In this document: in pieces, positions 5,790 through 58,456 of the stretch | Layout of the letters: each line of letters begins with the position of its first letter | Position numbering within the stretch: the first letter of the stretch is position 1 | Origin: Adineta ricciae | Taxonomy: Eukaryota > Rotifera > Eurotatoria > Adinetida > Adinetidae | Assembly (NCBI GenBank): GCA_905250025.1 | Contig: CAJNOJ010000468.1 | Coordinates: 1 to 64,000 of the forward strand | Reading direction: 5' to 3' | DNA length: 64,000 bases | Notes under the pieces: generated by a model | Seen by the model: only the letters and a program-made list of their open reading frames with translations | The model's database searches: none | Told to the model about the DNA's origin: nothing | Made by a program: the position numbers and the translations under genes

Positions 5790-6080
5790 TATTTTTAAAA
5801 AATAAATAATGCTCGTCGAGAGTGACTCGCATTACTCTCGACTAAAACAGTAGCTCAACAACGTACAATAGTTTTCATTCATGTTCCATACCAAAAAAAT
5901 CAGAAATATCTAATTAGGTTTGACTTCTAGAACTGATTTCAGGATCGCTATCTATCTCTCTGTTTAGCGTGCATTTCTAAATAAAGATCATTGTGAAAAT
6001 GAAACGGTAACTACTCAAGAGCGGGTAACTTGAACTTTCCACCTTTAAACACGCCTCCGTTTTTTAACGAAACGATGAAT
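5790..6080. repeat. Dispersed repeat, related copies at 27.6 and 35.1 kb
   Basis: The segment around 5800-5830 contains 'gtcgagagtgactcgcatta', which recurs in inverted orientation at about 27603-27622. The next segment ('ctcgactaaa.cagtagctcaa', then 'aaatg.aacggtaact' near 6000) recurs in direct orientation and diverged at 35140-35350. At least three window positions thus share one repeat family. No coding capacity seen. Confidence 0.65.
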
Positions 6081-6239
6081 AGCATGAAGTGGCAAATCTC
6101 AAACTGTTACCAGTTTGAAAAGCTGAGTGTGAAAATTTTCAAAACTTGAAATTCAACTCAAGTATATTGTAAGGCTGAGTTGTTGGAAAGTTCCTGATGT
6201 TGTTAGAAAATTAACAATATTCTACTCGAGTTGACTGAT

Positions 6240-6397
6240 AAATACGAAATATTTAGACATGTATATTGCTCGACAAGCTAGATGAGCAGATATCAGATAT
6301 TTAGTCACGTATATTCCCAACAGGTTTCAGAACCAGATATCAGATATTTAGTCACGTATATTCCCAACAAGTTTCAGAACCAGATATCAGATATTTA
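6240..6397. repeat. 47-bp tandem repeat, about three copies
   Basis: 'cagatatcagatattta' begins at 6287, 6334 and 6381, a period of exactly 47 bp. A more diverged unit precedes it from about 6246. The two central units are nearly identical. It lies about 190 bp beyond the stop codon of the KDZ transposase, a position compatible with a subterminal repeat. Confidence 0.85.
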
Positions 6398-6582
6398 CTA
6401 TTATCCTTCTCTGACTCAATAAGTTTTAAATAATGTACAAGTTCGTTGATAAAATATTTATGTATCATTTCAATGGTGCACCTATAGAGAAATTTGAAAC
6501 TGCTGGAATATATAAAATGGCTATGATAAATAACGAATAAAAAAAACTAAATAAAGTCATGAAGTATGGATTCAAAGGATTG

Positions 6583-9161
6583 TCAAACCCCTTGCTCGAA
6601 CGAACTTATACCAGTTGTCATACAATTTTTTAAATGAAATAACATTGTAAAAAATATTGTGGACTTTGGATAACTATATCCTCTGAAAGAGTTTTTGAAC
6701 TTTGACATATACGAAAACATCTGCTCAGCAACTTGCGTATTAATCGAATTATAAATGTCTTTATGAGATGGATCATCAGGTCTCATAATTGTTTTACACA
6801 TATGTCTTTTGTGATTTTTCACATGAAATCGATCAATTGCCATGGTTAATGATGTTAAAAATTCTGTAAATTCTGTTGACTTTAAATTATCTGAACCAAA
6901 GTGTTTCTCTACGAACAGCTTCAAGGTACAAGCGCAATCGTAGCACATAGCTGTTGGTAACGGACCATATCGTGATATTGTTAAAATATGGTGTAAAACA
7001 CGTCGCACTATTATTAAATTAAACGAAAAGTATTTGTTTTATTTCATGCTGGTTAATATAAATCTTCTATAATTACTTCCTTCAGAACATGGTTGTTCTG
7101 TAAATCCAACTATAACCGAACAATTCAAGAATGTAGCTAAGAAACCATAAGAACTAATTTTTGAACTACAACCAATTCCAGATCTGAATACATTGCACAA
7201 ATTATCATCATAACGACCATCTTTGTCAATGTACTCAATCAATGCCTCCTTATCTAAGTGTATTTCTTTATGGTCTTGATCAATAAGATGCACCGTAGCT
7301 GATGACAATATTGATGGTTGATGATGTTGACAAAATCTGTGATCGACATTAGGTGCTATAACAACGGAATATGATGAATTAATTAACAATGAAAAAAATT
7401 GACAATGATATGCTATCGGTCTTGAAACAATACGTTAAATCTTCAATAGCATCGCCGGATTTCACTCTTTTCATAGGATATTTCTTCTATTCTCTCTAGT
7501 ATGAAATATGTGCGGTTCGATGTTATCCGATATATATTTTTTTTCTCTCTTCCCCTCTTATACATACATATGTATGTATCGAATATGTCTAGCACTTCAA
7601 TTATTATCGTCTATACTCCACAAACATAAATTTACAACCAAACTCGAATCCCGAAGAGAATAATGATATGGTAAGAAAAACAAAATAATAGAAAGGACGA
7701 TAACATATCGATATCATAAAAAAAACGAATAGTCCATCAATAATCACTTTTTTTCTCTCGTTTCAGCTTTATATTAGATCCTTACATTATGTTACAATAT
7801 CGGATTTTATTTTAATTGATTGTAAAAATGTAAACCTGAACTTTTATAAATGAAAATATTTATAGGTATATTTCTTCAAGAACTATTTCGATCCAAATGA
7901 ATTCACGTATATCTATGGGACAGATTAGTAAAAGCAAATTTACCTTTTCTTAAAGGAGAATATAAACATCCCATTTGAACCAGTCCAAATTCAGGTATTG
8001 TATCATCAAACACATTCTTATATTGACATATCAAACGATTTGCTTTCTGATGCCCATCAACAACAAAGACTTTTGAGCATGTAACTGGATCGCATGCTTT
8101 TGTAAATCGTTGATGTTGTGTCCAGAAACCAACGAAATGTTTATACAAATCCAATTTTGCCGCTAAAAAATAATCATTACATTCTTTTATATCTCTTACA
8201 GACATTGGTACAGCTACAACATTGTGTTTTGTCGTCATGAAGGTAAACTTTGCTATATTAATAATAAGCCATGTCATTTGGAGAACTTTTCCGTTTAGTA
8301 TAGTTCTACGAAAATATGAGCGATAGATTTTGAAAAGTTACAATATGAATGACTTGTCTTACGTTTCACAATTATCAACTATTGTACTCATGAATGATTT
8401 ATCTTCTCTTTCTCTAACTATTGCTATTCTTGAATTGTAGGCTTGTGTATATCCATCAAACGACAAAGTATTTTTGACCAGATGATGGTCAAAATCAAGT
8501 AATAAATTTTGATCAAATATTTGATTTCCATTCAGATAAATAAATCGATCATTTTTAATTGATTCGTTCGTAATAAATTTCATCTTATTTTTTGTATAAA
8601 AATTCGGAAAAATTTCTACACCACAAGCATCACAAGAACAAGTAGCAATCACTATGTAGAAAATAGAACTTCAATCATTCTCGATTAATGGAAAATTTAA
8701 TGTAACATACGTGCTTTATAGTTACGTGTTAATGACAAAACCGTCTTTGGACGATGAGAGAAAACGACTTTTAATTCTTTCTTACAAACAACACATTCAT
8801 CGGTATATGGCTTCAGATATAATTCACATGCACCATTAAATTCAGCAAATCTATCGTTCTGATACTTTTGAATCATTTCATTAACTGATTGTTGTTGAAA
8901 CATATGATTATATGCTGGATTAATAGAGATAAATTCAATCATTGATTTTATCACATGAATTTCATACGACTTTTGATAATGTAAATTAATTATATTCATG
9001 ATGTGATCATATCTATTTTGCAGTTCTTTTGGAAAAACCTTGTTGAGCATCATCGTGTGAAATATCTCATTTAAACCCATCGAACGTGTCATTAAAATTA
9101 AGGTATGTTCCGCATCAGTGAGTTCCACCAACTTTAGTGATGACGAAGAGTTGCTATCCAT
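6583..9161 (-). CDS. KDZ-type DNA transposase (CxC5/6-like), intact
   Basis: Five exons: 9161-8711, 8651-8363, 8305-7944, 7355-7077 and 7007-6583. All have GT-AG junctions and the frame closes to give 601 aa. The N-terminal half carries zinc-type cysteine pairs (CVVC near residue 123, and 'CSCDAC' after the first intron), matching the CxC clusters of KDZ transposases. Then come 'VDGHQK' (Asp about 330), 'CQHH', 'CYDCAC' (Asp about 484), 'IDRFHVKNHKRHMC', and 'NTQVAEQMF' (Glu about 555). These fit the DDE-type catalytic core described for the Kyakuja-Dileera-Zisupton superfamily; the residue assignments are mine. It lies 232 bp downstream of the DUF3987-like gene on the same strand. The unusually long 588-bp intron 3 holds no visible gene. 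Complete frame and splice sites suggest a recent or still active copy. Confidence 0.85.
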
Positions 9162-9393
9162 TCAATTCGATTATCTAAAAAAAAGATTAAAAAGCATATC
9201 AAGAAAATGTCATTTTGCAATGTTGATTGCTAATAGAATTTCCTTCTTGCGTTGTAATAGTAAAAATTCGTTAAAAATATATGTAAGAAGGCGAGTAAAC
9301 AATATTTGAAGTCGAACTATATAAAGAAGGTAAAAATCAATAAGAAGACTGCGTAATTTCTGTCAAATTAAAGTAGAATTAATGAGAGGCCAT

Positions 9394-12300
9394 TTAATTT
9401 TTTCTTAATTTCTTAGTTTGCGTTCGTGTTTGCGGATGTACACCATAGTTTTCATCAGTTTCGGCCTGCCTTTTACGACGATGTAGTTGTGATCTAGTAT
9501 GTATTACTTCATTCTCCTCGGCGTGTTGATTTTGTTTTTCAGCATCTTTTGTGTTGTTATTTGTTGTCTTTTCTGTATAGTCTTTTATTGGTGAACGTTG
9601 TGGAATCGATGTTGACACCCCACTTTCAATATTTCTCTCGTCAATTATCATATCACATGGACGAAATTGTTCTTTATTCCATCGTACATGTTCCTTATAG
9701 AAGAAATTTGATCCCATCTTCTCAATAAACGTTTCTGACAAAGTCCAATTATTAGCGGTAAAAACATTGTCTTGTTGGTGAGGATAAAAGCATTTGAGAT
9801 ATTCTTCATACGTTAGGTTAACCTACAAAATCGATTTGGAAATTATTATCAAATATAAACAGTCTCAATATGAAAAGTATGATTATTAACCTCTTTCTGT
9901 AACAATTGGATGAATTCAAGTCTAGCTGCATCAGTGTTGGTCAATGGAGCACTTCTATCAAAAAAATATACGGTAAATGATCAAAATTTGTATAAATTTT
10001 TTTACTTAATCCATCCTTCTCTCAATATAGGTTTTTTGTTTTTCTCTGATACTTTTTTTGAACGACTTGGTTCAATCCAGAACTGATCTCCATATGTCAG
10101 TAGCTTTGAATCAATCAAACGTTTTACTGCATCCAACCTCAGTTGTGGTTTGTTACAAATTTGAGTAAGATCAGTTTTCGTATATACGACAGATTTCCAA
10201 GTCATTATATTTTTCATGACTTTTTTCACTGCAAGCTCATGTTTGGCATCGCAAGTATTTGTAACTAAATACAATAAAAACGAGACGATCTTCAATACAA
10301 AATAAAGGTAAAACACAAACTTTCTTTAACTGTTGGTGATGTTAATGTATGTGAACTGTTGGATTCAATATTATCAATTTGTTCAAAAGACATTGCTGAT
10401 AAATTATCAATCCTTTCTGAAGAATGATTATTTTCAAGTGCAGATTCTTCTAATGAGAACAATAAAAGTGTAATAAAATTGATACGTTAAATATTGTAGT
10501 GCTTACGAGTCATAGGTATATCGGGTTGACTACTCAATGCCTCAATGTAACAATCATGCTGTGGCACGGAACTCTCTGCAACAATATTCTGGTGTATGTT
10601 AACTTGAATTGGTGTTATAGTTTGACCTGTTGCTTTAGATGCTGGTGCACAAAATGCCGTTGTAGTTGGTTGATTTCGATTATTTGTTTGCTGCGTACAA
10701 GTACCTACAGTCCAATTCTCAATATCATGAAATTGAACATCAAATGCATCTGGATCTTGGACAATAAAACTTCCAGTACCGACTTCATGAATAATCGAAT
10801 TAGCAATATGACTTTGTATTATATTGGTCAATGCATCTCGATACTTCGCATATTGATTAACTAAACATGAACTACCTGCAAAGATTTTTAATGTCATCTT
10901 GGAAAGACTATTATTCGGTGGAATGGAACACTTTTCGTATATCGTACAATATTCATCGATGTTTATACCATGTTTCAACATCTTAGCAACGAATTCTTTT
11001 CGCATTGGATCATTTGTTGATGGTGGTGGTATTTTCATATACGCTTTGACATTGTGTCCTCGAATATTGGTCAAAAAGTAATTGTATTTCAATAAATTAT
11101 CTTGCATCAGCTCGTTAATCGCACGTTCTCCCAAAGCTGGTCTATTTTTGATAATTCCACTAAACAACAAAAAACGTTATAGATATCAATCAGTTACTTT
11201 AAATCAAGATCTTTCTTTAATACATACGTTTCGCCGGTGATAGGATGCTTCACACTTATCGCTGATGTCGGAAATATGTTAAAGTCCAGGTACATTATCA
11301 ATTCTTTAAGTGACTTTTGTCGAGCTGAAACGGAAGGTGGTAATGAAATCAAATTAGTTGGAGAAGTGTAATCAATCGTGAATAGTTTTGTAACAATTCG
11401 AAGATAATATTCATACAATTCCCATCCAATTAATACTGCATCTTTACTAACAATAATCATTGGATCTGTTACTACTTTTTCATCTTCCATGCTTAACAGG
11501 TAAGTTTTATCGTACTTGTAATAATCCTTTTTAATAATTTCTTCGACAGTTCTTATAAAACTTTCGTTAATGAAAGAATTCGGGTTGTCACCTTCACTAA
11601 AAGCAACAAAATCTTTCACCTGCTCAAGTATATGCATACAATTTAAAAATAATTGAACTAAGCAAGCCAAGCGAGGAACTATTGCTTTCGCCTTGGCATA
11701 AAAGTCCGTTATTTGTTGTTGCTGATTTTGTTTCATATTGTGATTGTCGACTAAATCAGCAATAAGATTCCAAATGGTAAACATAGCGGAGCTGGGTGCT
11801 TGTGTTTGATCGTCAATATTTTGTGATGATGGTACTTGATTGGATGTTACTATGATAATAAAATGAAATCGAGCAATGTCTTATCAATTTAATAGATCTT
11901 TTACCACCCGCAAATTTCATTCGCTCCGCTTCCGACATCTCAAACACATATCTGACTGACCCAAAGAGATGCGAAATCACACATAAGTGAGTAAAAGATG
12001 GACTCTTCTTCAGATCATTATTGATTTGAAAACTAAAAGAAGAAGATCATACATCAATTCATGTTTGATGATACTATTATGATCTCACTGTTGAGGTCTT
12101 GAACACAAGACCTTAGGTATGCACATGTAAAGAAACCGATTGTGAGATCCATCAAAACCGGTGCAATTTAACCAATTTCTCATATTTTTCATTAATTTAC
12201 CACCTGTTGTAGCAATCAAGATTGTTAAGCGTTTATCTTTAATTTCAACACATGTTGATCCAGTAGTTCTTAGTGAATTATCAAATCTAATAGCAAAAAT

Positions 12301-13458
12301 TGTGCAATTAATGTATATGGTGTCATTATTGATATTACCCATCATGTCCAACTAATAATAAGTTCCTATCGTGTTCTTTGGTCGGATCATTCACATTGTA
12401 GATTCCGTATTGCTCGGCGATAACATCAGCATCATCATTTAACAATATTTTACTATTAGACGATAAATGATTACGTAACCCAATATGATTGGTATGCGTT
12501 ACAATTGATGACATGTTTGTTTCTGTTGGTGCACCATTTACGATGACAGGTTTCAAATATGTAAGTGGAAAAAGTTTCTCTGTTTTGCTGATTGCTTTAT
12601 CCACTTGTTTAAACGCATAAGTTTTACCACTGCCTTCAAAAACAAACAGTCAGAAAAAATAAAAACCTAAGAGAGAAAAGGAGACTTCGAACTTTGAAAC
12701 TTTAAAGAATTCCGTAGGATTCCAAAGTACTGCAAAACTCCATGAGGCATCACTACATCTGAAAAATCGCTTGAAATCGCATGAAGTCTTACGGAATCCG
12801 TAGATGAAGAAAAAACGTTGGTACCTCTACCAAAACTTTTCCTAATTTTTTTCTGCTCATGCGCATGATCTTCTGGAACTTCTTGGACAAGATTGTGATA
12901 CTCTATGGACACATCTTGAGATCAAGTCTTGACAAGCGCTTGAGTAAAAAAGTTCGCCTAGGGATATCTCCATTGTTATTGATCTATATTAAATTTTCTC
13001 CATTGAGTCATCATCGTTTTCTATATCCTATCGTATGAAATATGGAAAATACTCATATAAAATTCTTCCTTCTTCTCCCGGAATAGAAAAATACGTATTT
13101 AAAAAAGAAACTATAATAGATTATATTCGATATTTTTCCTCAATTATTCTGTCGCATATTATTTAAACATACCACTTGGCCCCAACAACCATAAATACAA
13201 TTGGACAGGACATGGATCGGAAGAACTGAAATAAGTGTAATAAGAATTCTGGGAGAAATGAGACATCATGCCTAATGATAAAAAGAAAGACAAAGATGTT
13301 TCATAATTGTAAATGTTTTTGTATGCTTTTAATAGTTGCATTTGCGGTGGATTCAGAATATCACTCATTTCAATATTCATATTAGATGCTAATGATATAT
13401 TTGTTAAGATCATTTCGGAAATTGTTTTGTCATCGATAAAAGAAGAACGTTTTGTCAT
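9394..13458 (-). CDS. DUF3987-like P-loop ATPase/helicase, intact
   Basis: Ten exons: 13458-13173, 12633-12339, 12286-12089, 12032-11905, 11849-11198, 11159-10507, 10449-10321, 10264-10006, 9954-9891 and 9822-9394. All are GT-AG; the sum is 3093 nt, or 1030 aa. Start is the ATG at 13458 ('MTKRSSF'). A Walker A motif 'GPSGSGKT' spans residues 93-100 and is split by intron 1. A Walker B-like 'ILLNDDAD' lies at 158-165, followed by 'RLTILIATTGGK' and 'GSHNRFLY', an order like the DUF3987 primase-helicase-associated ATPase family. A helical region and winged-helix-like stretch follow; the C-terminus is polar and basic ('RRKRQ', 'TKKLRKN'), suggesting DNA binding or nuclear targeting. Tandem placement upstream of a KDZ transposase suggests a replication or transposition accessory role (inference). 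The family call is by motif order, not by search. Confidence 0.75.
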
Positions 13459-13862
13459 AATGAATTGAACACAAAAGATAAGTACGAATATATGGATATA
13501 AATGTATAACCTTGACATAAAAAAGAAATAGCTTTCATTCATAAACAAGACGAACATCGTTATCGTAAGCAGAAAAGAGCTAAAAACGAATTGTTATCCT
13601 TCCTAATCTATTTGTATTGTGTTAACATAGCTCCTCCAGTATTTAGTCGACACTTACTTGACTACTTGACTTCGATGCTAAGCGTTAAATTTTTTACTGT
13701 ATATACTTAGAATCAAGACAAAATCTTTTTTTAAATAGGCATGAATACAAAAGACATATATCATATAGTGAATACTTTTTAGAAATCATCGTTTATCTTA
13801 TTAGATGATTAAACAAAATACGAAATCTGATATCTATTGCAAAACATAGAAATATCGTATGA

Positions 13863-14040
13863 CATGCCCTCGATCAGCTGGTTTCCATATGTTGTTCTTG
13901 TATTTTTTTTCCTCTTCACCATCTTTCATATGCTCTCGATCAGCTGATATCCATATATCGTTCTCCTTTTTCTCGTTCTTTCCATGTATGTACACTTAAT
14001 CAGCTGAGATATATGTGACTATGTTCTCTCTTTCTTTTCT
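13863..14040. repeat. Imperfect 60-66 bp tandem repeat
   Basis: A 'c(g/t)atcagctg' core followed by a pyrimidine-rich stretch occurs at 13871, 13937 and 13997, with the surrounding 60-66 bp partly conserved. It lies upstream of the DUF3987-like gene start and may be a subterminal or promoter-proximal repeat of the element. Confidence 0.6.
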
Positions 14041-14829
14041 TTTCGCTAAACCCTTGATTAGATGTTTCTATTCGTTTTCTTATTTATATTTTGCACTTAA
14101 CGGAGAAAACATCTGTCATCAATATGCTAAAAAATGATTCGAAGAACATTAGATTTTTTAAATCAATCAATCCCTAAATTTTCGTCGACAACAGCTGCTA
14201 CAATTCGTTCTCCTATCTCTTTATCTTCGTTTCATATGTGATCACTTGCCATGAAATACTATAAAGGTGTTCTAGCATCGTTCTTCGTTCATCCAAACCG
14301 TTTTGAAATCGTTTTCTTTTAATCCTACATCTGACCAAAGAAATGAAACATCACATGTTTCTATAAATTTCTTCCGCAATCGTCTACCACTATACAATTT
14401 TACGTTCCAATCATTTTCTCATATACTTTGATTTTCAACATGTACAATATCTGATGACTCAATCAGATAAATAGCAGCATTTCCGTTATGCACACTAAGA
14501 AACAATTAAACTTTGTTTTAATTCTCCTTTTAAATTCTGATTATGACCTTCTATCGAAAACCAGAACATAGAGGACAATTAAGATAACTCAAACATATAA
14601 GTAACATCAATATTCACAAATAATTTTTCTTTGTCATAAAAAGGTTTTTTTAAAACTTCTGACAGTCACCGAAGGGTCAAAACTTTCCCTAAAGATCTTC
14701 TCGTTATTTCAGTTATATTAATCATAGGTAGGTACATCATATAACGAAACTACTTTAACCCAATATCGAACATAAAATCCGCGAGCTATCACTCATTCAA
14801 TCCTTATTCATTGTACTTCACTCAATTTT

Positions 14830-15008
14830 TGTATATATATATGGATAAATTGTTGCACTTTAACATGTATGGAAAGTGAAAACTTTCTATGTAAAACTGA
14901 ATATCTGATATCTGCATATCTGTTGATGCCAATGTCCATAGAGATATATGGATGAATTGTTGCACTTTGACATGTATGGAAAGTGAAAACTTTCTATGTG
15001 AAAGCACA
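14830..15008. repeat. Direct repeat, 107-bp period, plus (AT)n
   Basis: A block of about 55 bp reading 'ggataaattgttgcacttt' at 14843 recurs as 'ggatgaattgttgcacttt' at 14950. Both copies run on through 'acatgtatggaaagtgaaaa'. The segment between them holds the inverted 'atatctgatatctg' that matches the left-flank repeat at 6287. Confidence 0.8.
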
Positions 15009-15073
15009 GATATGATAGTTATCTGCTCACTGAAACTGTGCACATTCAGTTGCGTGCGTGTATGTGGTCCATA

Positions 15074-15105
15074 CCATATATATATATAGATAGATAGATA
15101 GATAA
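15074..15105. repeat. AT/GATA microsatellite
   Basis: An (AT)n stretch runs into about five GATA units. No associated feature was recognised. Confidence 0.85.
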
Positions 15106-15449
15106 GTAGAACTTATGCTGCGAACGAAACGTCTTAATTTATGTGCTACGATCTAATGGTGTTTATGGAAATAAATATCTGATTTTCGCAACCGCAGAAG
15201 ACAAGAAGAAAATGCTATTTAATAAAAACTGGTTACAGTTTGAGATTTGCCATGCCCTCATGAATAGTGTGAAATAAAATACGATTACCTATAGATTTCA
15301 GAATCAAACTGGCATGTCTTTTCTCATCCGTACAACAGAATATTTCACTGGAAACAGCTCCGTAATCCTCCCAAATTCTGATTTTACTGTTCTATTTTAT
15401 TCATCACGACGTTTAATTGAACAGTCTTTACTGAGATAATCAACAAATA

Positions 15450-16259: not shown

Positions 16260-17278
16260 TCAGATCGCATGACCGTTATACAAAATACGTGTTTAGATAC
16301 ATGCCCATTGATAAAATAAATAGATGGAAGATGCTAGCTAATTTTAGTAATGCACTCATATTTTCAGTCTGTTATAACGATCACATGTTTCAAATATGTT
16401 CTCCGTAACATGTTGTTGATACTTTAGCTATATTCAGTTTAAAGATCATCCGTAATTGAAACAGGAGCTGTGCCTGAATAGAATTCTACACTTCGTAGCA
16501 TCCAGCACATCTAACATAATACCATTGGGTGAAAAAAGAATGAGAGGACGACCAGGAAAAGTAACCAAAGCTTTATTAATACAATAATGGTTCGTTTAAA
16601 TTATTTACTTAGAAATCTTTTCAATGGAGTACTTAGAAGAAACTAAATTTTTTACTTAGTATTTGAATGTGAGCTAATATACACGTTGTATTTATGAATA
16701 GAAAAAATTTGGAAAAGAATATGTGTTTGATTATAGCTATTGCAACGTCCTTGAAAGAAATATTCATTTTGTAGAATTAAGATTAATGACGATGAAAGTA
16801 TATGTCAAATCATGGTCACTATTGTGTCGTGAAAAGAAACATTGTGTTTCGATCTCAGCGTATATCTGTCACCATGATGAGAAGAATCTATAGAAATACT
16901 CAGTGTGAATTCATTCGTCCGAATTATTTTCAGTGGCGCATAAAGTTTGAAAGATGTTCTTTTCCGACGATGTATAATTTCTTATACCCTATACATTGAG
17001 ATGCATTTATTTAAGCATACCGCCTTGCGTTCATTTAAGATCTAAACTATGCGCGCCGATGTGAAGAAGCTATCTGATAGGACCTCTCTATGAGTCGTAA
17101 GAGGAATGAAATTGAAGCATGAACTTATATGCGTAAATCAGTTTACTAGAGAATCGAGGAAAATGCTGAATTAATGTGATTGGGTCACTTCTTTATCTGC
17201 TTCATTTTTCTCGACCCAAAGAAGAAAACAAAAAAACAAGTTCTTCTTACAAGCATTTATGTATGATAGATCTTAAAT
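16260..17278. other. Intergenic upstream of 7TM receptor
   Basis: No gene, RNA or repeat recognised. The last few hundred bases would hold the promoter of the receptor at 17279, but no specific element can be named. Confidence 0.4.
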
Positions 17279-18298
17279 ATGTGTGATGTTTCTTTTAGTC
17301 ATTTCTTCGAACAAGGCAACACTTCGACGACGATGTATTCAAATTTTTTAATTTCTAATGAAGTTCAATTTTGGCTATTTTTAACTGCATTTATTCCATC
17401 TGTTGGCTGTTCGATCTTTGTCCTTTACCACTTAATATCTAATCGAACTCAACGTCATGCCATCAACAATCGAGTTATTATCGTTCTTATATCCAATAAC
17501 CTGATCTATGAGCTTATTGATATCCCATTGTTTCTCAACTATTATCGTTTAGAGGCTGTCTGGCCTAATACGCCAGGTTTATGTTTAATGTGGATTTTCA
17601 TTGATGAAGCACTGTATTCTATTTCAACGGTAGTTCTTGCTTGGGCATCCATTGAACGACATATTCTTATTTTTCACAATCGATGGTGGTCGAGCACTAG
17701 AAGACGTCGCCTTATTCATTTTATTCCTTTAGTATCACTCGTATTCTATATAATTATATTCCATACTGTCTTTATTCTACTACCACTCTGTGAAAATACG
17801 TATGACTATACACAGGAGCTGTGTGGTCATAAAATTTGTTTACACAATACAAAGATTGTTGGCACATGGGATAGTATTATGAATGATATTTTGCCAACGC
17901 TAATAATTGTTGGCTTTAGCATTGCTCTTCTAGTTCGTGTTCTCCTCCAAAATCGTCGCGTCCATCAACATATTCAATGGCGAAAACATCGAAAAATGGC
18001 AATTCAGTTATTGTCGATTTCTATTCTCTATTCTTTGCTTTACATTCCAATAATGTGCATTGTATTGGCACAACTATGCTGTATATCCCAAGATAGCGGT
18101 GACATTTTTATACAATATGGGAGATTCTTTTCTTATTACGTTACATTTCTCCTTCCATTTGTATGTTTTATTACATTATCTAAATGTTCATACAAATTCA
18201 AGGACATGTTCCCAAATTGGCACCGGCCAGCACGATTGATTCATCCTATGCCGTTGCCAATGATGACAGTTGCAGCAGAACGGCCAAATATAATGTAA
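17279..18298 (+). CDS. Seven-transmembrane receptor (rhodopsin-like), single exon
   Basis: Single-exon ORF of 339 aa with seven hydrophobic segments. N-glycosylation-type sites (e.g. 'NTST') precede TM1. The TM3 end reads 'ASIERHILIF', so the usual DRY motif is ERH. A conserved-type Cys lies before TM3 ('GLCLMW') and further Cys residues lie in the second extracellular loop. A basic third intracellular loop precedes TM6, and the cytoplasmic tail is short. Length and topology fit class A GPCRs; intronless receptors of this type are common in bdelloids, and the ligand is unknown. An AATAAA lies at 18358-18363, 60 bp past the stop. The 3' half of the gene is duplicated at 20117-20436. Five Met codons lie near the start; the first is taken. 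Confidence 0.85.
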   Translation: MCDVSFSHFFEQGNTSTTMYSNFLISNEVQFWLFLTAFIPSVGCSIFVLYHLISNRTQRHAINNRVIIVLISNNLIYELIDIPLFLNYYRLEAVWPNTPGLCLMWIFIDEALYSISTVVLAWASIERHILIFHNRWWSSTRRRRLIHFIPLVSLVFYIIIFHTVFILLPLCENTYDYTQELCGHKICLHNTKIVGTWDSIMNDILPTLIIVGFSIALLVRVLLQNRRVHQHIQWRKHRKMAIQLLSISILYSLLYIPIMCIVLAQLCCISQDSGDIFIQYGRFFSYYVTFLLPFVCFITLSKCSYKFKDMFPNWHRPARLIHPMPLPMMTVAAERPNIM

Positions 18299-24342: not shown

Positions 24343-25326
24343 TACATGCTGTCTCAAACAAATCTTATTCCAGTGTTTCTATCACCTAAATATTATCGAC
24401 ATTTTTCATTCATTTGCTCAATTAGAACTTTGAAAATATTAAAAACAAATTGCAATGCGATGAATTTTTTCAAAAACTATCATCCGATGATGCATTTAGA
24501 AATTAACTCTATTCGTTATATCTATCAAATGAAAACACATCTTATATCCAATTCATTTATTGATTTCAAAACTTTCACTTTGGGAATTTCCTATGATCCT
24601 CGCTTCTTATCTTTACAAAAACTAACACAAAATAATTAGAAATCTCTGCATCCAATGTTATCATCAATACCTGAACTGTGTTCATTTCAAATGATCGAAT
24701 GCACCCTATTACTACTTGATAATGCATTTTCGGTACTCATTATTCTTCACTTGTGTATTTATCAATTGATGAATGTAATTTAAAAAATATATTTATACTG
24801 TTGAGTAGAGCTCTGAAACTAGATCATTTGAAAATAAAATATCTATTTTGACCGCCGAGATGTACAAATCAATGATGAAAGCGTCGTGAAAAATCCTGCA
24901 TATCATCTCAAAATATTATATATTAATGAACTTGCAAATTGTGTTAAATACGTTTTTTTGAATTATTTTGAAAACAAGCACCAAATTTAGAAAATTTGAC
25001 ATTATTAATGCTTATGAATGGCAAAATTTCATAACTGCTTCATTATCTCATTTGAAGAATTTCAATTTCGATATCGTGCCAATGGTTTTCTGCCCAACGG
25101 TAGTATTGAAGAAAGTTTGGAAGTATTTCAGAATGATTTTTAATATAATAAACATCACTGATATACATAATATATGATGTCAATATCTGTCATATCAATC
25201 TATACAATACCATATGGATTTGATCGTTTCGTATTTAAATCACATATTGATAGATTTTATAACCACTCAATGAATTACCTTAATACATTTTATAATGTAA
25301 AAGAGTTAACCATTCATCTGAATTAG
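24343..25326 (+). pseudogene. Decayed F-box/LRR-like gene of bdelloid type
   Basis: One frame begins with an F-box-like 'CFYHLNIIDIFHSFAQL' (about 24375-24425). Other frames carry 'YEWQNFITASLSHLKNFNF' (about 25010-25070), then 'GSIEESLEVFQNDF' and 'SIYTIPYGFDRF' (25100-25230), and the region ends near 25326. This order fits a repeat-rich F-box protein family I associate with bdelloid rotifers. There are several frame changes and stops (e.g. after 25177 in one frame), so the copy is dead. The family call is from recall; a search is needed to confirm it. Confidence 0.6.
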
Positions 25327-36027: not shown

Positions 36028-38738
36028 TCAGTTAATACTGCTCGTTTGTTGCATTACTCGAGATACACGATCACTTGATAACTTTGTTTTTGTGTTGGAT
36101 AACACCCAACATGCTGATTGTTTATGAAGATATTTAGTTTTTTCCTTTAATTTGATCCTAAAATACGAGTGTTTCAGAGCAGGATTAAGACAATCAACAA
36201 GTTTAATTCCATAGAAATTTGATTTTGTTGTGTTTAATACCTCTGTTTCATTATTTTCATTACTGTCTTCAAAAGTCAATAACTGATTATAAAACTCATC
36301 TTCTCCATCATCATCGGATTCTAGTTCTTCATTGATATACGTTGTTGCTTGTGATGAATGGCCGAACATTTTTGAACTCTTCTTTAAGTTGTTGTATATA
36401 AATTTACTTAAAATTTCCAAATTAATCATATCATTTTCTTCTAATTCTAGCAACATGTTTGAATGATGTACGATATTGACTGCTTGTTCGTACGCATCTG
36501 ACATAATTTGCTCAAGATCCAATGTATTTATCTCATCTAAATTATCTGCCACTGTCAATAAATCATCATGTTTATGCTTGTGATGGACTGGAAATGACAA
36601 ACCATTATTCAGTTGATTGTGCTTGATTTGATTTAATATGCATAATTTTTGTGCACGTTGAACAAAATTTTTCACAGTAAAGTTTATCATGGTAGAGAAA
36701 GAACCACTTAATAATCGTGCAGCACGAAAAACGGATTCGCATGGCTGCGATGAGAAAAGATTTATATTAATTAAAGCCTGTTTAGGTAAATGTTTTAGTA
36801 TCACTAGGAGTATCAAATAAATCAGATTGTGTGCATTCAACTCAACACAAATGTATGCAGGTTTTGAAATAAAATGCTTGTGTACATCATTCTTCTTTGA
36901 AGTTGTTACTTTATTTCTCGAAGAATTTGAAATTGAATTTATTATTAACCATGCCAACCATAAGCGACAAATAAATACGACACACCATGCTGATTGTACG
37001 CCAATGTAGGTGTACAGAAATAGTATAGAATTAAAAAATCCAGTATCACGGGTCAAAAGAATCGAAAATAAACTTACGTTCACGAACGGATGTTTCTCTA
37101 TTAATATAAGCATTCACTATCATTTTAATTAAAGTTAAGTAAATGACGGTTCCATTCGTCTCATCACGATCAACCAAAAGTTTTATTACATCCTCTGATA
37201 TTATCTTGATGCACGAGTTAAAATTCTGTCTATCTTTCGGGTTAATGTCACTTATCGTAAGACCATGATCGAGTTTTGTATGACACCCATCACTAACCAA
37301 TGCTTCAATGTGTGCTATATTGATTTTATCAGTTCCAATACGTAAATCAGCTGTAGAAGACAGCATCCTGTTTCTCAATTTTGTTACGATATGAATCGGA
37401 TCCTGAAAAAACAAGAAAAGCTGATGCTCTCCAAGAAAAAACCAAGTCCAATGTGTTGGTATATTAATTTTAAATGCATGTTCATTTTTATCCCATTTTA
37501 AGTCATAGGAAGATGCGAAAAAACCACTGGCTAGTCGCATGGCACTTACATACCGCCTATCCGCATCTAATTTAAATTAAAGAAGCGTATTAGAAAATAT
37601 AAATGCTTTAGAATTTACCTGTAGCGAAACCGATAATGCGGACGTTTTGCTTCAAACATTGTTGGAAAACATGCATCCATCGATGAAATACATTTACTGC
37701 GGTGATTTTATTGTCAACACCGTACGCAGATAACAACAATGGTCTTGGAATACATGATTGACTTTCTACAGTTGGTATTCCTTGAAACATGTGGACATTT
37801 AGTAACGGAGCTATTTCTTTATTATCATAAATTGCTTTTAATTCACCAAATGTATTTGCTTGATAGAATCGTGGTGATGGAATACCATGATCAATTGGTG
37901 TGGCGAATCCGATGAAAGAATTTGTTTTAGAATCGTATTCAACTCTACGAATAACTCCCGTAGTGTCTTCAGAGCAAAAGCCAAACTCTGAGTGACATAG
38001 CCGCAGAGATTCAAAATTAAATTCTGCTTCACTAAAAACGGTTCCTGAATTATTAATCAATTCACTAAGCGTTGATAAACTAGGAACAGATCCATACAGA
38101 TTCAAACGAACAAACTCATACACTTGTTTGCCACCAAGAATATATAAACACATTGCAAAACTTTTAACCGATTCATTATGTTTAAAGTTATTTGGAGATT
38201 GTGTGAGATTATTCACTAAGTTATCGATGAATGATAATAAAAATCGATTTGACTGTTTCACGTCATTTGAGTCAGTAAAACGATACCATTTAATTAACGA
38301 TTTTAATAATGGATAACTATTCAGAAAATCATCAGTTAAATAACTTCCACAATTCTCTCTCTTTTCATTTAATGCTGTTTCTTGTTTTTGTTTTAATCCT
38401 TTTTCCAATAACTTCATAAGAAATGAAAACGCGCTTTGAATACCTGGTTTTACAATAACTTGTCCTGATTTAGATATGTAGCATGATTCAAGTTTAATAA
38501 CATCAGTTTCTTTTATATCATACTGAAAAAATGCAAAAACATCAGGCGTATTAAGTAATTTTGTAACAGAATTGATCAATTGTATTTTTAAAATTTTCGC
38601 TAATGAATCACCTGCTGTTGATTGAATAAAATCGTAAAAGCGATAGTCAACAAGTTCAAAGATATCATCTGGTAAAATCGAAATATCAACAGACATATTA
38701 TCTGATAGAGAACACATTTCTTTTGAACAATAATTCAT
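36028..38738 (-). CDS. Putative DDE-type transposase, intact, family unnamed
   Basis: Three exons (38738-37619, 37566-37078, 36989-36028) with GT-AG introns give 856 aa in frame. The N-terminal ~110 residues are homologous to the N-terminus of the divergent neighbour (39509). Motifs follow in order: 'TDADRRYVSAM' across intron 1 (Asp 374/376), 'FFQDPIHIVTKLRNRML' (Asp about 429), 'DINPKDRQNF', 'FICRLWLAWL', and 'QPCESVFRAARLLSG' (Glu about 621). A D...D...E set with 'DP.H..(K)..RN' after the second Asp recalls P-element/THAP9-like RNase H folds; the catalytic assignment is inference. I know similar uncharacterised proteins from other invertebrates but not a family name. The intact frame and splice sites suggest a recent copy. 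A truncated relative lies at 45334-45662. Confidence 0.75.
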
Positions 38739-39508
38739 ATTTATCTAAAAAAAGATGAAATTAGCGCACCATTACAGAATTTAAAAGACGAATATTTTCC
38801 AGCTAGAGAACTTGATGAATGTTGAGAGCGGTTTTCTATTTTAACTACTTTTAAATCGGCAGGAAAAAGTAGGTTTGACAATGAAGAAATTCTGTGATAC
38901 TTCTTTGCAAGAAAAGCATGGACGCATAAGCACGGTAAATAAATCTCACGAAAATAAATTACCAAAGAATGAAAAAGTTCATCAAAGAAAACCATAGAAA
39001 ATGACTATTCTGGCTAAATAACAATCTAAATAGAGTATAATCATACGTAGATCATTTTGAAAAAATATTCTGTAGAATTGTACATCGTGTCATAAATATA
39101 ATATTTCACTAATCTAATACAATGACAAAATTTTTCATATTCATCATCGATGGCGTGCGGACATCAGTATCTAAAAATCATGTTCAATGTACATTACATA
39201 TCACTCTCGAAGGTATACATGAGTCATCAATAAGATCAAAGAATTCTTTTTTATTTGTAGAGGTCTCTATTTTATGAAGGATTTAAGAAATTAGTTGTGC
39301 TATTTATATTATATACATGTATGTATACACGCATTTCTTTACCATTGGCTAGTTTTATGTACAAACCATGTGTCCGTTTCTTCTTATGCGCAGGAATTCA
39401 ATTTACTTGTTTTCTTTCGCTATAGAAATATTTCCTTTACACGAAAGCATTGTTCATCTACAGTGCTTTCTTTTGCACTTTTATTTTATCTTTTAGAGTA
39501 ATTAATTC
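38739..39508. promoter_or_regulatory. Bidirectional central region of the divergent transposon
   Basis: This 770-bp stretch lies between the two divergent start codons. Its half next to the transposase (38741-39100) is conserved in the truncated copy at 45663-46273, apart from a ~250-bp insertion there. It must hold both promoters. No individual element can be named. Confidence 0.55.
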
Positions 39509-40444
39509 ATGCATCGTGACTATTATTTTGGTCATTTACCATCGAATGTTTTAGCACTATCTGGTTATGAATTCTTCCAGTTCATTCAAAGTATTCTAGG
39601 TGAACCCGAAGTAAACCTTTTAAAAAAAATTTCTGTGAAAACAACATCGTCTTTTATGAATATTGAAGATCCATTGGCTGTTCTTAAACAAGATATTGAT
39701 GATGAAGAATTAGAGATATTAAAGAAACAATTATGTTTTAAAATGAAAAATGATAACTATTTGATTAAACCCGGTGTTGAGTCTGGATTTTCATCGCTAC
39801 AAAAAGCATTAAAAGAAAAACTAAACCAACAGATCAACAGTTCCACTAAAAAGAAACAACAACGGAATGGTGATGTATCATCTATTTCTTCTTTGACATT
39901 ATCATCTCAAGAAGCAAAAACTTCTTCATTTTCTTTACCAGAACATAAATCACATGTTCTTCAATTAATAAAAAAATGGTGTAATGACAATAAAGAAAAT
40001 TTTAATTTAGAAAATTTTCAATTGGAAGAAGATATCGATTTTACATTAAATATTCAGTTTGATGAAAATTCTACTGTACAAGCCACTATCAAGTGCAAAT
40101 GTGGTAAATTGATTTCATTGTGTAGAAATGGTTCGAAAATACAAGTGTCCAATTATTATAAACACTTGCATTCTTTTGGATGTAGTCGTATGAAAGAAAT
40201 CAAAAGAGACAACAGAAAACCGCAGGTACAGCAGCAGCAGTTGCAATCGACAATTACATCATTACGTGTTTTAACATCTCAATCATGTGTGTCACCTGTT
40301 GAAGCGCACGCTGATGAAATGGCAGATACACAATCGACACCTAATGAAAGCTCAGTTTCAAGATCGCAATCAAGTCTAAACTTGAAGCGTCCTATACCAT
40401 CTGGTTCACAACACTCCGCTTCGACCAAACGAAGCCGTAGATAA
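39509..40444 (+). CDS. Transposon accessory protein with zinc-binding-like domain
   Basis: Single-exon 311-aa protein. Residues about 5-115 align with the N-terminus of the divergent transposase: 'YEFFQFIQSILGE' against 'YDFIQSTAGDS', and 'YLIKPGVESGFSSL' against 'VIVKPGIQSAFSFL'. A Ser/Lys-rich linker follows. Then comes a Cys/His cluster (CKCG, later 'YYKHLHSFGC'), like a BED-type or related zinc-binding DNA domain, and a long polar low-complexity tail ending in basic residues. An AATAAA lies at 40518-40523. The shared domain suggests that the two proteins dimerise or contact a common partner; the zinc domain may read the flanking AAGTA arrays (inference). Confidence 0.75.
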   Translation: MHRDYYFGHLPSNVLALSGYEFFQFIQSILGEPEVNLLKKISVKTTSSFMNIEDPLAVLKQDIDDEELEILKKQLCFKMKNDNYLIKPGVESGFSSLQKALKEKLNQQINSSTKKKQQRNGDVSSISSLTLSSQEAKTSSFSLPEHKSHVLQLIKKWCNDNKENFNLENFQLEEDIDFTLNIQFDENSTVQATIKCKCGKLISLCRNGSKIQVSNYYKHLHSFGCSRMKEIKRDNRKPQVQQQQLQSTITSLRVLTSQSCVSPVEAHADEMADTQSTPNESSVSRSQSSLNLKRPIPSGSQHSASTKRSRR

Positions 40445-49782: not shown

Positions 49783-50718
49783 TTATGGTGTCATTACATT
49801 TGATTTACGACGTAATCTTTTCATCACAAATTCCTTTAATGGAGTTGTTATGAAAAACAAATAAATCATTGCTGAGAGATTTGATAATTGAAAAAATGCA
49901 TAAGCAATACGTGCATATCGTTTCATCGATGGTTGAATAAATGACATTGTGACGATGATCAGATATGGAAAGGAGATGACAATCAATGTTATTATCAATA
50001 TTACAATACGACGAATAGCTTTCAATTCTCGCTTAGCTCGCGCTAAGGAGTTTGATGCAGCGGCATTCTTACCCGTCTGTTTCACGTATCGAAATAATTT
50101 CAAATAGATGAAAATAATTATTGAAATTGGTAAATTAAAATTACAAAAGATTCCACAAATAATACATACAGATGGATGAAGTTTTGCTTGACACATATGA
50201 GTCTCTACTACGTAGACTATTTCTTGAGTAGGAATACATTCAGAAGGAAATATAATAGATACTATCCATGTTAAACAAATAAATGAAGTTTGACATCGAA
50301 ATGATCGAAAAAGTAGACGACTGGGATAAACAGCAATCGTGTATCGATACAAAGATTGTAAAGTGAATGAAAAATTAAAAATACCGCAGGCTGTATAGAT
50401 GAGATAGGCTCGAGTAATGCAAAGAGGATCTTTATAATCTTGCTGTTTAAGATCATTCTGTAATACAAATACTCCTACAGTGAGAACCGTACATCCTAAA
50501 ACAAGTGCAGCGAAACATGTATTAGTCATTAATAACATTGGAACAGTATGACATGTTTTGTCAATGATAATGATGAAGAGAAAGATAATCGACAATATAA
50601 TAATTAATGCTGAACAGATAATCATAAAAATATTTGTTGGAATAAACCAAGATTCAACTAACCCAACCGTTGAGTTGTTACTAAATATGTATAATTCGAG
50701 AGTAATTGTTACATTCAT
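49783..50718 (-). CDS. Seven-transmembrane receptor, single exon
   Basis: 311-aa single-exon ORF with seven hydrophobic segments. The short N-terminus has N-glycosylation-type sites ('NVT', 'NNST'). TM3 ends 'SLYRYTIAVYP', so the DRY position reads YRY. A basic third intracellular loop ('ARAKRELKAIRR') precedes TM6, and TM7 is followed by a short basic tail. It fits a divergent rhodopsin-like GPCR typical of bdelloid-specific expansions. It differs clearly from the receptors at 17279 and 57512, so the three are not recent duplicates. Ligand unknown. Confidence 0.82.
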   Translation of the reverse strand: MNVTITLELYIFSNNSTVGLVESWFIPTNIFMIICSALIIILSIIFLFIIIIDKTCHTVPMLLMTNTCFAALVLGCTVLTVGVFVLQNDLKQQDYKDPLCITRAYLIYTACGIFNFSFTLQSLYRYTIAVYPSRLLFRSFRCQTSFICLTWIVSIIFPSECIPTQEIVYVVETHMCQAKLHPSVCIICGIFCNFNLPISIIIFIYLKLFRYVKQTGKNAAASNSLARAKRELKAIRRIVILIITLIVISFPYLIIVTMSFIQPSMKRYARIAYAFFQLSNLSAMIYLFFITTPLKEFVMKRLRRKSNVMTP

Positions 50719-50799
50719 GTTTTTCGAAACTATTCAATTAATTATACGTCAAATTCTAGAAGATAGAAAATATAATAGTTTCCACCAAATAGAACGTAT

Positions 50800-57450: not shown

Positions 57451-57511
57451 TAGAAATTCAATTCGTCTTCATATTTAACTTAACATTTATTTCAATATTT
57501 GTAAAATTAAT

Positions 57512-58456
57512 ATGGCATCATTGATAGAGATAACAAATAATATGACTCCTATCAGTTTCATTATCTTATTAATCATGGGCACAATTGGAAACATATTGAA
57601 TATTATTACATTTTTTTCTAAAGATTTTCGAACAAAAGCTTGTATATTATATCAGATTATTTCTTCTGCACTTAATATATGCTTCACTAATTTTTTTATC
57701 ATTATCTATCTGACAACACAATATTCAGGAGAGAATATCACACAGACGAATCGTCCAATGTGCAAAATATATGGTTATTTTTCGATATGCTCATCAGCAA
57801 TCACAGCAACTTGCCTTTTCTTATCGACACTCGATCGATGCTTATCGACATCACGAAATGTGCGTTACCGGCAACTGAGTAATCTGTCATTTGCTAAACG
57901 CCTTTTAATTGTAACAATGCTGTTTCTATTAAATTCAAGTATCTTTTGTCTGATTGTCTATGATCTTTACGATGATATGTGTATATCAGCACCTGGTCTG
58001 GGAACGATCGCTGTTATTGTTTATGCAAATATTTTTATTTCTCTGATTCCTCATGGCGGTATGCTAATTTGTGGTATCATTACATCGATACATATGCGAC
58101 AAATGAGAAATCGTATTGATATTAGTTCTGATGCAGGTAATCCAACGCCCGCTGTTCAGAGAATGAATCGACAATTATTGATCTTAATATTTATACAAGC
58201 TTTGGTGGAAATAATATTAGAAGTACAACGCAATATTTCAGCTACATATAATTTGATTACTAGTTCAGTAGAGAAAAGTGTTGAACAACAAGCAATTGAG
58301 TATTTTGTTACACAACTGAGCATCATACTTTACACCGTAAAACATGGCATATCTTTTTATATTTATTGTGCTTGCAGTAGTATGTTTCGAAAGAACTGTC
58401 GAAAATCTATCAAATCGTTATTGAATAGATGCTGTTGTTTCAATCGACATAATTAG
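57512..58456 (+). CDS. Seven-transmembrane receptor (rhodopsin-like), single exon
   Basis: 314-aa single-exon ORF with seven hydrophobic segments. TM1 carries the class A type 'GTIGNILNI'. TM3 ends 'LSTLDRCLST', so the DRY motif is DRC. A Cys before TM3 ('PMCKIYG') and Cys in extracellular loop 2 could form the usual disulfide. TM6 follows 'AVQRMNRQLLILIF'. The tail ends in a Cys-rich cluster ('NRCCCFNRHN') suited to palmitoylation. The layout resembles bdelloid peptide-receptor-like GPCRs; ligand unknown. Confidence 0.85.
   Translation: MASLIEITNNMTPISFIILLIMGTIGNILNIITFFSKDFRTKACILYQIISSALNICFTNFFIIIYLTTQYSGENITQTNRPMCKIYGYFSICSSAITATCLFLSTLDRCLSTSRNVRYRQLSNLSFAKRLLIVTMLFLLNSSIFCLIVYDLYDDMCISAPGLGTIAVIVYANIFISLIPHGGMLICGIITSIHMRQMRNRIDISSDAGNPTPAVQRMNRQLLILIFIQALVEIILEVQRNISATYNLITSSVEKSVEQQAIEYFVTQLSIILYTVKHGISFYIYCACSSMFRKNCRKSIKSLLNRCCCFNRHN

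Follow-up and report, generated by a model that had tools for sequence, protein, structure and literature searches.

A 9,177-bp KDZ-type transposon of the rotifer Adineta ricciae with a DUF3987-type ATPase gene between its ends

The contig CAJNOJ010000468.1 of the rotifer Adineta ricciae (assembly GCA_905250025.1), whose first 64,000 nucleotides were analysed here and are called the window, contains at positions 6083-15259 a DNA transposon with two genes on the minus strand, one coding for a KDZ-type transposase and the other for a DUF3987 AAA+-type ATPase. Both lie between a single pair of terminal inverted repeats (TIRs) and a single 8-bp target-site duplication. The features of the element are the following (all exons are predicted, with splice sites picked by hand):

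6075-6082, plus strand: target-site duplication, left copy, 8 bp, ATGAATAG, present once in C396, a relative without the insertion
6083-6116, plus strand: left terminus CATGAAG and terminal inverted repeat TGGCAAATCTCAAACTGTTACCAGTTT (6090-6116)
6273-6403, plus strand: left subterminal array of three inward-facing CAGATATTTA-type motifs with a spacing of 47 bp
6583-9161, minus strand: KDZ transposase gene, 5 exons, 601 amino acids, with a CxC5-like cysteine cluster and D330/D484/E555
8711-9161, 8363-8651, 7944-8305, 7077-7355 and 6583-7007, minus strand: exons of the KDZ transposase gene
9394-13458, minus strand: DUF3987 AAA+-type ATPase gene, 10 exons, 1030 amino acids
13173-13458, 12339-12633, 12089-12286, 11905-12032 and 11198-11849, minus strand: exons 1-5 of the ATPase gene
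10507-11159, 10321-10449, 10006-10264, 9891-9954 and 9394-9822, minus strand: exons 6-10 of the ATPase gene
14892-15181, minus strand: right subterminal inward-facing CAGATATTTA-type motifs (14898 and 15172)
15226-15259, minus strand: right terminal inverted repeat (15226-15252) and terminus ending in GATTTGCCATGCCCTC
15260-15267, plus strand: target-site duplication, right copy, 8 bp, ATGAATAG

Both genes were rebuilt exon by exon from the sequence, and the original prediction of two multi-exon minus-strand genes of 601 and 1030 amino acids, separated by a gap of 232 bp, was reproduced exactly. The frames are open throughout, 13 of 13 introns are GT..AG and the TGA stop codon of the KDZ gene ends at 6583. 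Furthermore, the edges of the tblastn blocks in at least one of the copies C276, C504, C732, C796 and C716 (such handles designate places elsewhere in the genome, the window contig being C468) coincide with nearly every exon edge, supporting the predicted splicing; the border between KDZ exons 1 and 2 was invisible in the blocks of C732.

The spliced ATPase matched Pfam DUF3987 (PF13148) with 42.8 bits (E 5e-11), passing the gathering cut-off of 27. This match was absent when the gene was searched exon by exon and emerged only with the spliced protein, and the match to Pfam AAA (16.4 bits) was below its cut-off of 21.2. The Walker A motif GPSGSGKT is located at residues 93-100, as had been proposed, and is split by intron 1. 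When eight members of the family were aligned, a Walker B-like LLNDDAD and an arginine finger-like DGxxNRF could also be recognized (both names are our own reading, and the row of C226 begins downstream of Walker B), with R244 of DGxxNRF invariant in the eight rows. Among the PHROGs phage families, the ATPase relative found at C570 falls in one annotated as "DNA helicase" (5.6e-16), and the first 459 amino acids of the window ATPase are placed there too, at 6.6e-4, none of the individual stretches passing by itself. The ATPase carries a long C-terminal extension, and no Pfam domain was above a cut-off in the C-terminal region. The AlphaFold model of the exon piece 10005-10265 consists of three helices with a mean predicted local distance difference test (pLDDT) of 54.6, which does not suffice for a fold search; a winged helix there thus remains a guess.

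The transposase of the window scored lower. Its exon 5 matched Pfam KDZ (PF18758) with 22.2 bits (E 1.3e-4), below the cut-off of 26.6, and the frame of exon 2 matched CxC5 with 20.0 bits, also below the cut-off, while the spliced protein gave 22.7 bits for CxC5 (cut-off 26.9) and no KDZ row. Its homologue at C570, matched by the window protein at 7e-20, is above both cut-offs (37.6 bits for KDZ and 33.8 bits for CxC5). Aligning three divergent KDZ proteins (window, C226 and C570) revealed that D330, D484 and E555, which probably make up the catalytic triad, are invariant, as are C123, C157 and C160, and that several Cys/His positions are held in common. Comparisons with viral contigs provided 0 relatives of either protein (6 stretches fitted the pattern for the transposase and 1 for the ATPase) in single-protein queries that reach close relatives only.

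The limits of the element could be established at both sides. The TIR arms (6090-6116 and 15226-15252) are 27 nt long, 96% complementary and have both genes inside; outside them, the outermost 7 nt of the left and right element ends agree at just 2 of 7 positions. The presence of ATGAATAG at 6075-6082 and 15260-15267, just beyond the TIRs, sets the element at 6083-15259, that is 9,177 bp, with ends reading CATGAAG...GCCCTC. In addition, C396 is a related site without the element that contains a single ATGAATAG and reads through the junction. It aligned to the joined window flanks with 79% identity, covering 1-741 of the 742 nucleotides of the query (0.77 identity to the left and 0.81 to the right of the junction), and the one gap, of 52, was located away from the junction. 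The TIR pattern was detected at 32 places of the genome with up to 3 mismatches, including the two of the window, and the reversed control at 0. As for the subterminal motif CAGATATTTA (up to 1 mismatch), the window element contains 5 occurrences, all of them within 1 kb of an end and pointing inward, and the element of C504 contains 9, again all within 1 kb of an end, of which 8 point inward; the part of the window lying to the right of the element has 0.21 per kb. The element is itself inserted within another dispersed repeat, the joined flanks giving at least 50 genome matches, two of them the window itself.

A second copy with the same layout was found in C732, where the 8-bp duplication TATGTTCT is present at both ends (the right end at 25260) and both genes are inside in the same order. 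C504 also has this layout, and parts of both genes in unchanged order appear in C796, C276, C716 and C413, C276 and C716 being cut by contig ends. When four end pairs were compared (window, C732, C504 and C227), matching duplications were found in two, window and C732, and each of these encloses both genes, indicating that the clean-ended copies have no boundary between the two genes. The original prediction that the two genes form one element, which other KDZ copies ending between them would have contradicted, is borne out by the shared ends, the one 8-bp duplication, the gene order in C732 and the purifying selection described below. Two further arrangements were seen among the relatives, a tandem duplication of part of the ATPase gene at C276:3282-5634 and, at C226:83500-93500, a distant same-strand ATPase-KDZ pair located between inverted arrays of a subterminal repeat of ~85 bp, whose exact element ends were sought and not found.

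Comparisons of diverged copies revealed purifying selection on both genes. The ATPase of the window compared with that of C276 gave proportions of nonsynonymous (pN) and synonymous (pS) differences of 0.211 and 0.658 over 1005 codons, and the KDZ gene compared with that of C504 gave 0.182 and 0.723 over 587 codons; the resulting ratios (omega) are approximate because in most pairs the synonymous positions are close to saturation. The identity to the window drops in parallel for the two proteins, to 30% (ATPase, from a partial row) and 32% (KDZ) in C226, and to 20% and 24%, respectively, in C570.

Actually, the association of the KDZ and DUF3987 families recurs in this genome. Merging the homology searches provided 36 ATPase loci and 41 KDZ loci, numbers that are lower bounds because single exons were searched and scores were computed for the best candidates only; all the matches of the PF18758 profile were on contigs already among the 41. 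A KDZ locus was found within 10 kb of 18 of the 36 ATPase loci, for a chance expectation of ~0.6% per locus. Since the copies are not independent, the binomial value for the co-occurrence is only a guide. In 13 of the paired loci the two genes share a strand, with the ATPase located 5', and in 5 they are on opposite strands; the paired lineages are only 18-32% identical.

The same ATPase family was found next to another type of gene. At C538:39409-42945 a DUF3987 ATPase and a frame resembling human PrimPol (2.2e-6) are arranged head to head, and the relatives of this frame at C140, C514, C298 and C473 also adjoin an ATPase; C1018 and C1000 have PrimPol-like relatives with no ATPase among the matches listed. 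In C514 an extra frame (L080:2517-3020) is located between the ATPase and the primase, with no Pfam match and no convincing match in PDB. No KDZ frame was seen at C538:35400-39400, and the contigs with PrimPol were absent from the KDZ match lists. Altogether this looks like a primase-ATPase replication module present in this genome, and such neighbours support a replication-type role of the ATPase family in it. The PrimPol-side ATPases are distant from the one in the window (24% identity at C140, E 6.6e-4).

Zisupton elements have TIRs and 8-bp duplications (PMC12730594) and a multi-exon gene for their KDZ transposase (PMC9297572). The window element resembles them in the probable KDZ-type transposase with a CxC-like cluster, the multi-exon gene, the TIRs and the 8-bp duplications, and differs by the addition of a separately encoded DUF3987 ATPase. 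An 8-bp duplication is reported for a Dileera element too (PMC12730594), so this character does not single out Zisupton. Kyakuja, with 7-bp duplications, 5'-CA..TG-3' ends and no TIRs (PMC12730594), was rejected, given the 8-bp duplication, the TIRs and the CATGAAG...GCCCTC ends found here. Second genes are known from other elements: fungal Kyakuja, Dileera and Zisupton carry TET/JBP dioxygenase genes (PMC12730594) and KolobokP, a eukaryotic DDD/E transposon, a homing endonuclease gene (PMC9587614), where the window element has an ATPase. On the side of the ATPase, DUF3987 (PF13148) proteins of bacterial mobile elements occur as fusions with PrimPol primases, and their domains are predicted to be mobile-element helicases because they replace known helicases beside PrimPol primases (PMC5862659). 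The window element shares with these bacterial systems the ATPase family with this predicted activity, and differs from them in that no primase was found in it, in having a DDE-type transposase as the partner and in the nine introns of the ATPase gene. In the literature searched, as far as its text was available, no pairing of KDZ and DUF3987 is described; the founding papers, reportedly of 2012 for Zisupton and of 2014 for the KDZ superfamily, were outside this search, and print elsewhere may differ. The available text of PMC12730594 contains the word "ATPase" 0 times, and that of PMC12062965 contains "ATPase" and "DUF3987" 0 times.

We consider it probable that this is a two-protein DDE transposon of the KDZ superfamily in which the ATPase is a retained part, most likely a helicase-like motor working at the ends. 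The KDZ transposase would recognize the inverted ends, probably by binding the inward-facing subterminal repeats, excise the element and insert it again with an 8-bp duplication. The ATPase would open or remodel the DNA at the element ends, aiding excision, and the opening could also serve replication or gap repair with host polymerases. Its role as a helper in excision, repair or replication is suggested by the membership in DUF3987 and in the phage "DNA helicase" family and by the association of the family with PrimPol.

Several observations weigh against this interpretation. The other 18 of the 36 ATPase loci have no KDZ within 10 kb, so that the ATPase is found evenly with and without this neighbour rather than mainly without it, as the original prediction had feared, or mainly with it; 5 of the 36 are beside a PrimPol-type primase and 13 beside neither, 10 of these 13 being matches spanning less than 450 nt. 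Conversely, no ATPase was detected within this distance of 22 of the 41 KDZ loci. In the close pair C276-C716 the ATPase had an omega of 0.73 (274 codons), that is, a weak constraint, with 0.21 (181 codons) for the KDZ gene, values that might fit decaying copies. The ATPase of C570 also matches, more weakly, two "DNA primase" families of PHROGs, and the PDB sequence search with the ATPase gave nothing useful, only RACK1 at E 0.015. Regarding the ends, the two 8-mers flanking the element of C504, whose layout is the same, do not match, and C227:217-6485 has two window-type TIRs with 0 mismatches, 6.3 kb apart, without matching duplication. This last region, for which neither KDZ nor ATPase was among the matches listed, is possibly a non-autonomous relative of the window element; a frame at 6577-6672, just outside its end pair, presumably resembles a mariner-like helix-turn-helix. 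Finally, the motif CAGATATTTA was picked after the repeats of the window had been seen, and shows no concentration in C732 (1 of 2 terminal). A motif that overlaps it, ATCAGATATT, has a smaller share of its occurrences near the ends (6 of 10 in the window, 9 of 11 in C504 and 0 of 3 in C732).

The most serious alternative, which we nevertheless regard as rather unlikely, is that the ATPase works without unwinding as a transposase regulator or target selector, binding the target in its ATP-bound form and recruiting or activating the DDE transposase. Dedicated AAA+ partners of bacterial DDE transposases are well known, for example MuB of Mu, TnsC of Tn7 and IstB of IS21, and the window element also has a DDE-type transposase linked to an AAA+-type ATPase, both constrained. 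However, the relatives of this ATPase are predicted helicases, members of a phage "DNA helicase" family or neighbours of primases, and neither IstB nor TniB appeared among the Pfam rows (E up to 1) or the NCBIfam rows (E up to 0.01) returned for it. The ATPase could also be a captured passenger or regulatory gene kept for host-directed reasons, such as escape from silencing or dosage, and not for transposition. The dioxygenase genes of fungal KDZ elements (PMC12730594) are a precedent for carrying other genes, and the KDZ loci without detected ATPase would be expected; but the recurrence of the association across lineages so divergent and in two relative orientations, together with the purifying selection and the conserved NTPase motifs, makes this quite improbable. 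That two unrelated elements simply adjoin, nested or by chance, is hardly credible. Loci with either gene alone do exist in the genome, but here a single pair of ends and one duplication surround both genes, the empty site reads through, and the order is the same in C732, C504, C796, C276, C716 and C413; it was rejected on the basis of the empty site C396 and the arrangement in C732.

The presence of both genes in one complete element suggests that an ATP-driven helper travels with some DNA transposons of eukaryotes. In the usual view, cut-and-paste transposition in eukaryotes requires a transposase together with host factors, whereas in bacteria several DDE systems rely on an ATPase partner dedicated to them. 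The present KDZ element, which encodes a conserved ATPase of its own, is a directly testable eukaryotic counterpart of these bacterial systems, and it links KDZ transposons with ATPases that the literature found discusses in connection with bacterial and phage replication. As the same family is found in PrimPol loci and with a DDE transposase, the KDZ elements of this genome might even be integrating replicons that pass through a replicated or extrachromosomal stage driven by the ATPase. We consider this doubtful; if true, these elements would parallel phage satellites in a eukaryote and stand apart from Polintons and Helitrons.

Elsewhere in the window, the frames 37611-38744 (minus strand) and 39506-40441 (plus strand) resemble each other by eye, and the former has a weak match to a P-element helix-turn-helix (E 0.0032, 18.3 bits, below the cut-off of 23). 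A telomere-repeat pattern gave no indication of the species, its reversed control matching just as often (12/26 versus 14/30). Three frames resemble rhodopsin-type seven-transmembrane receptors. The one at 57479-58453 (plus strand) matched 7tm_1 with 20.0 bits, below the cut-off of 30.5, and those at 17270-18295 (plus strand) and 49786-50733 (minus strand) did so with 41.7 and 51.2 bits, respectively.

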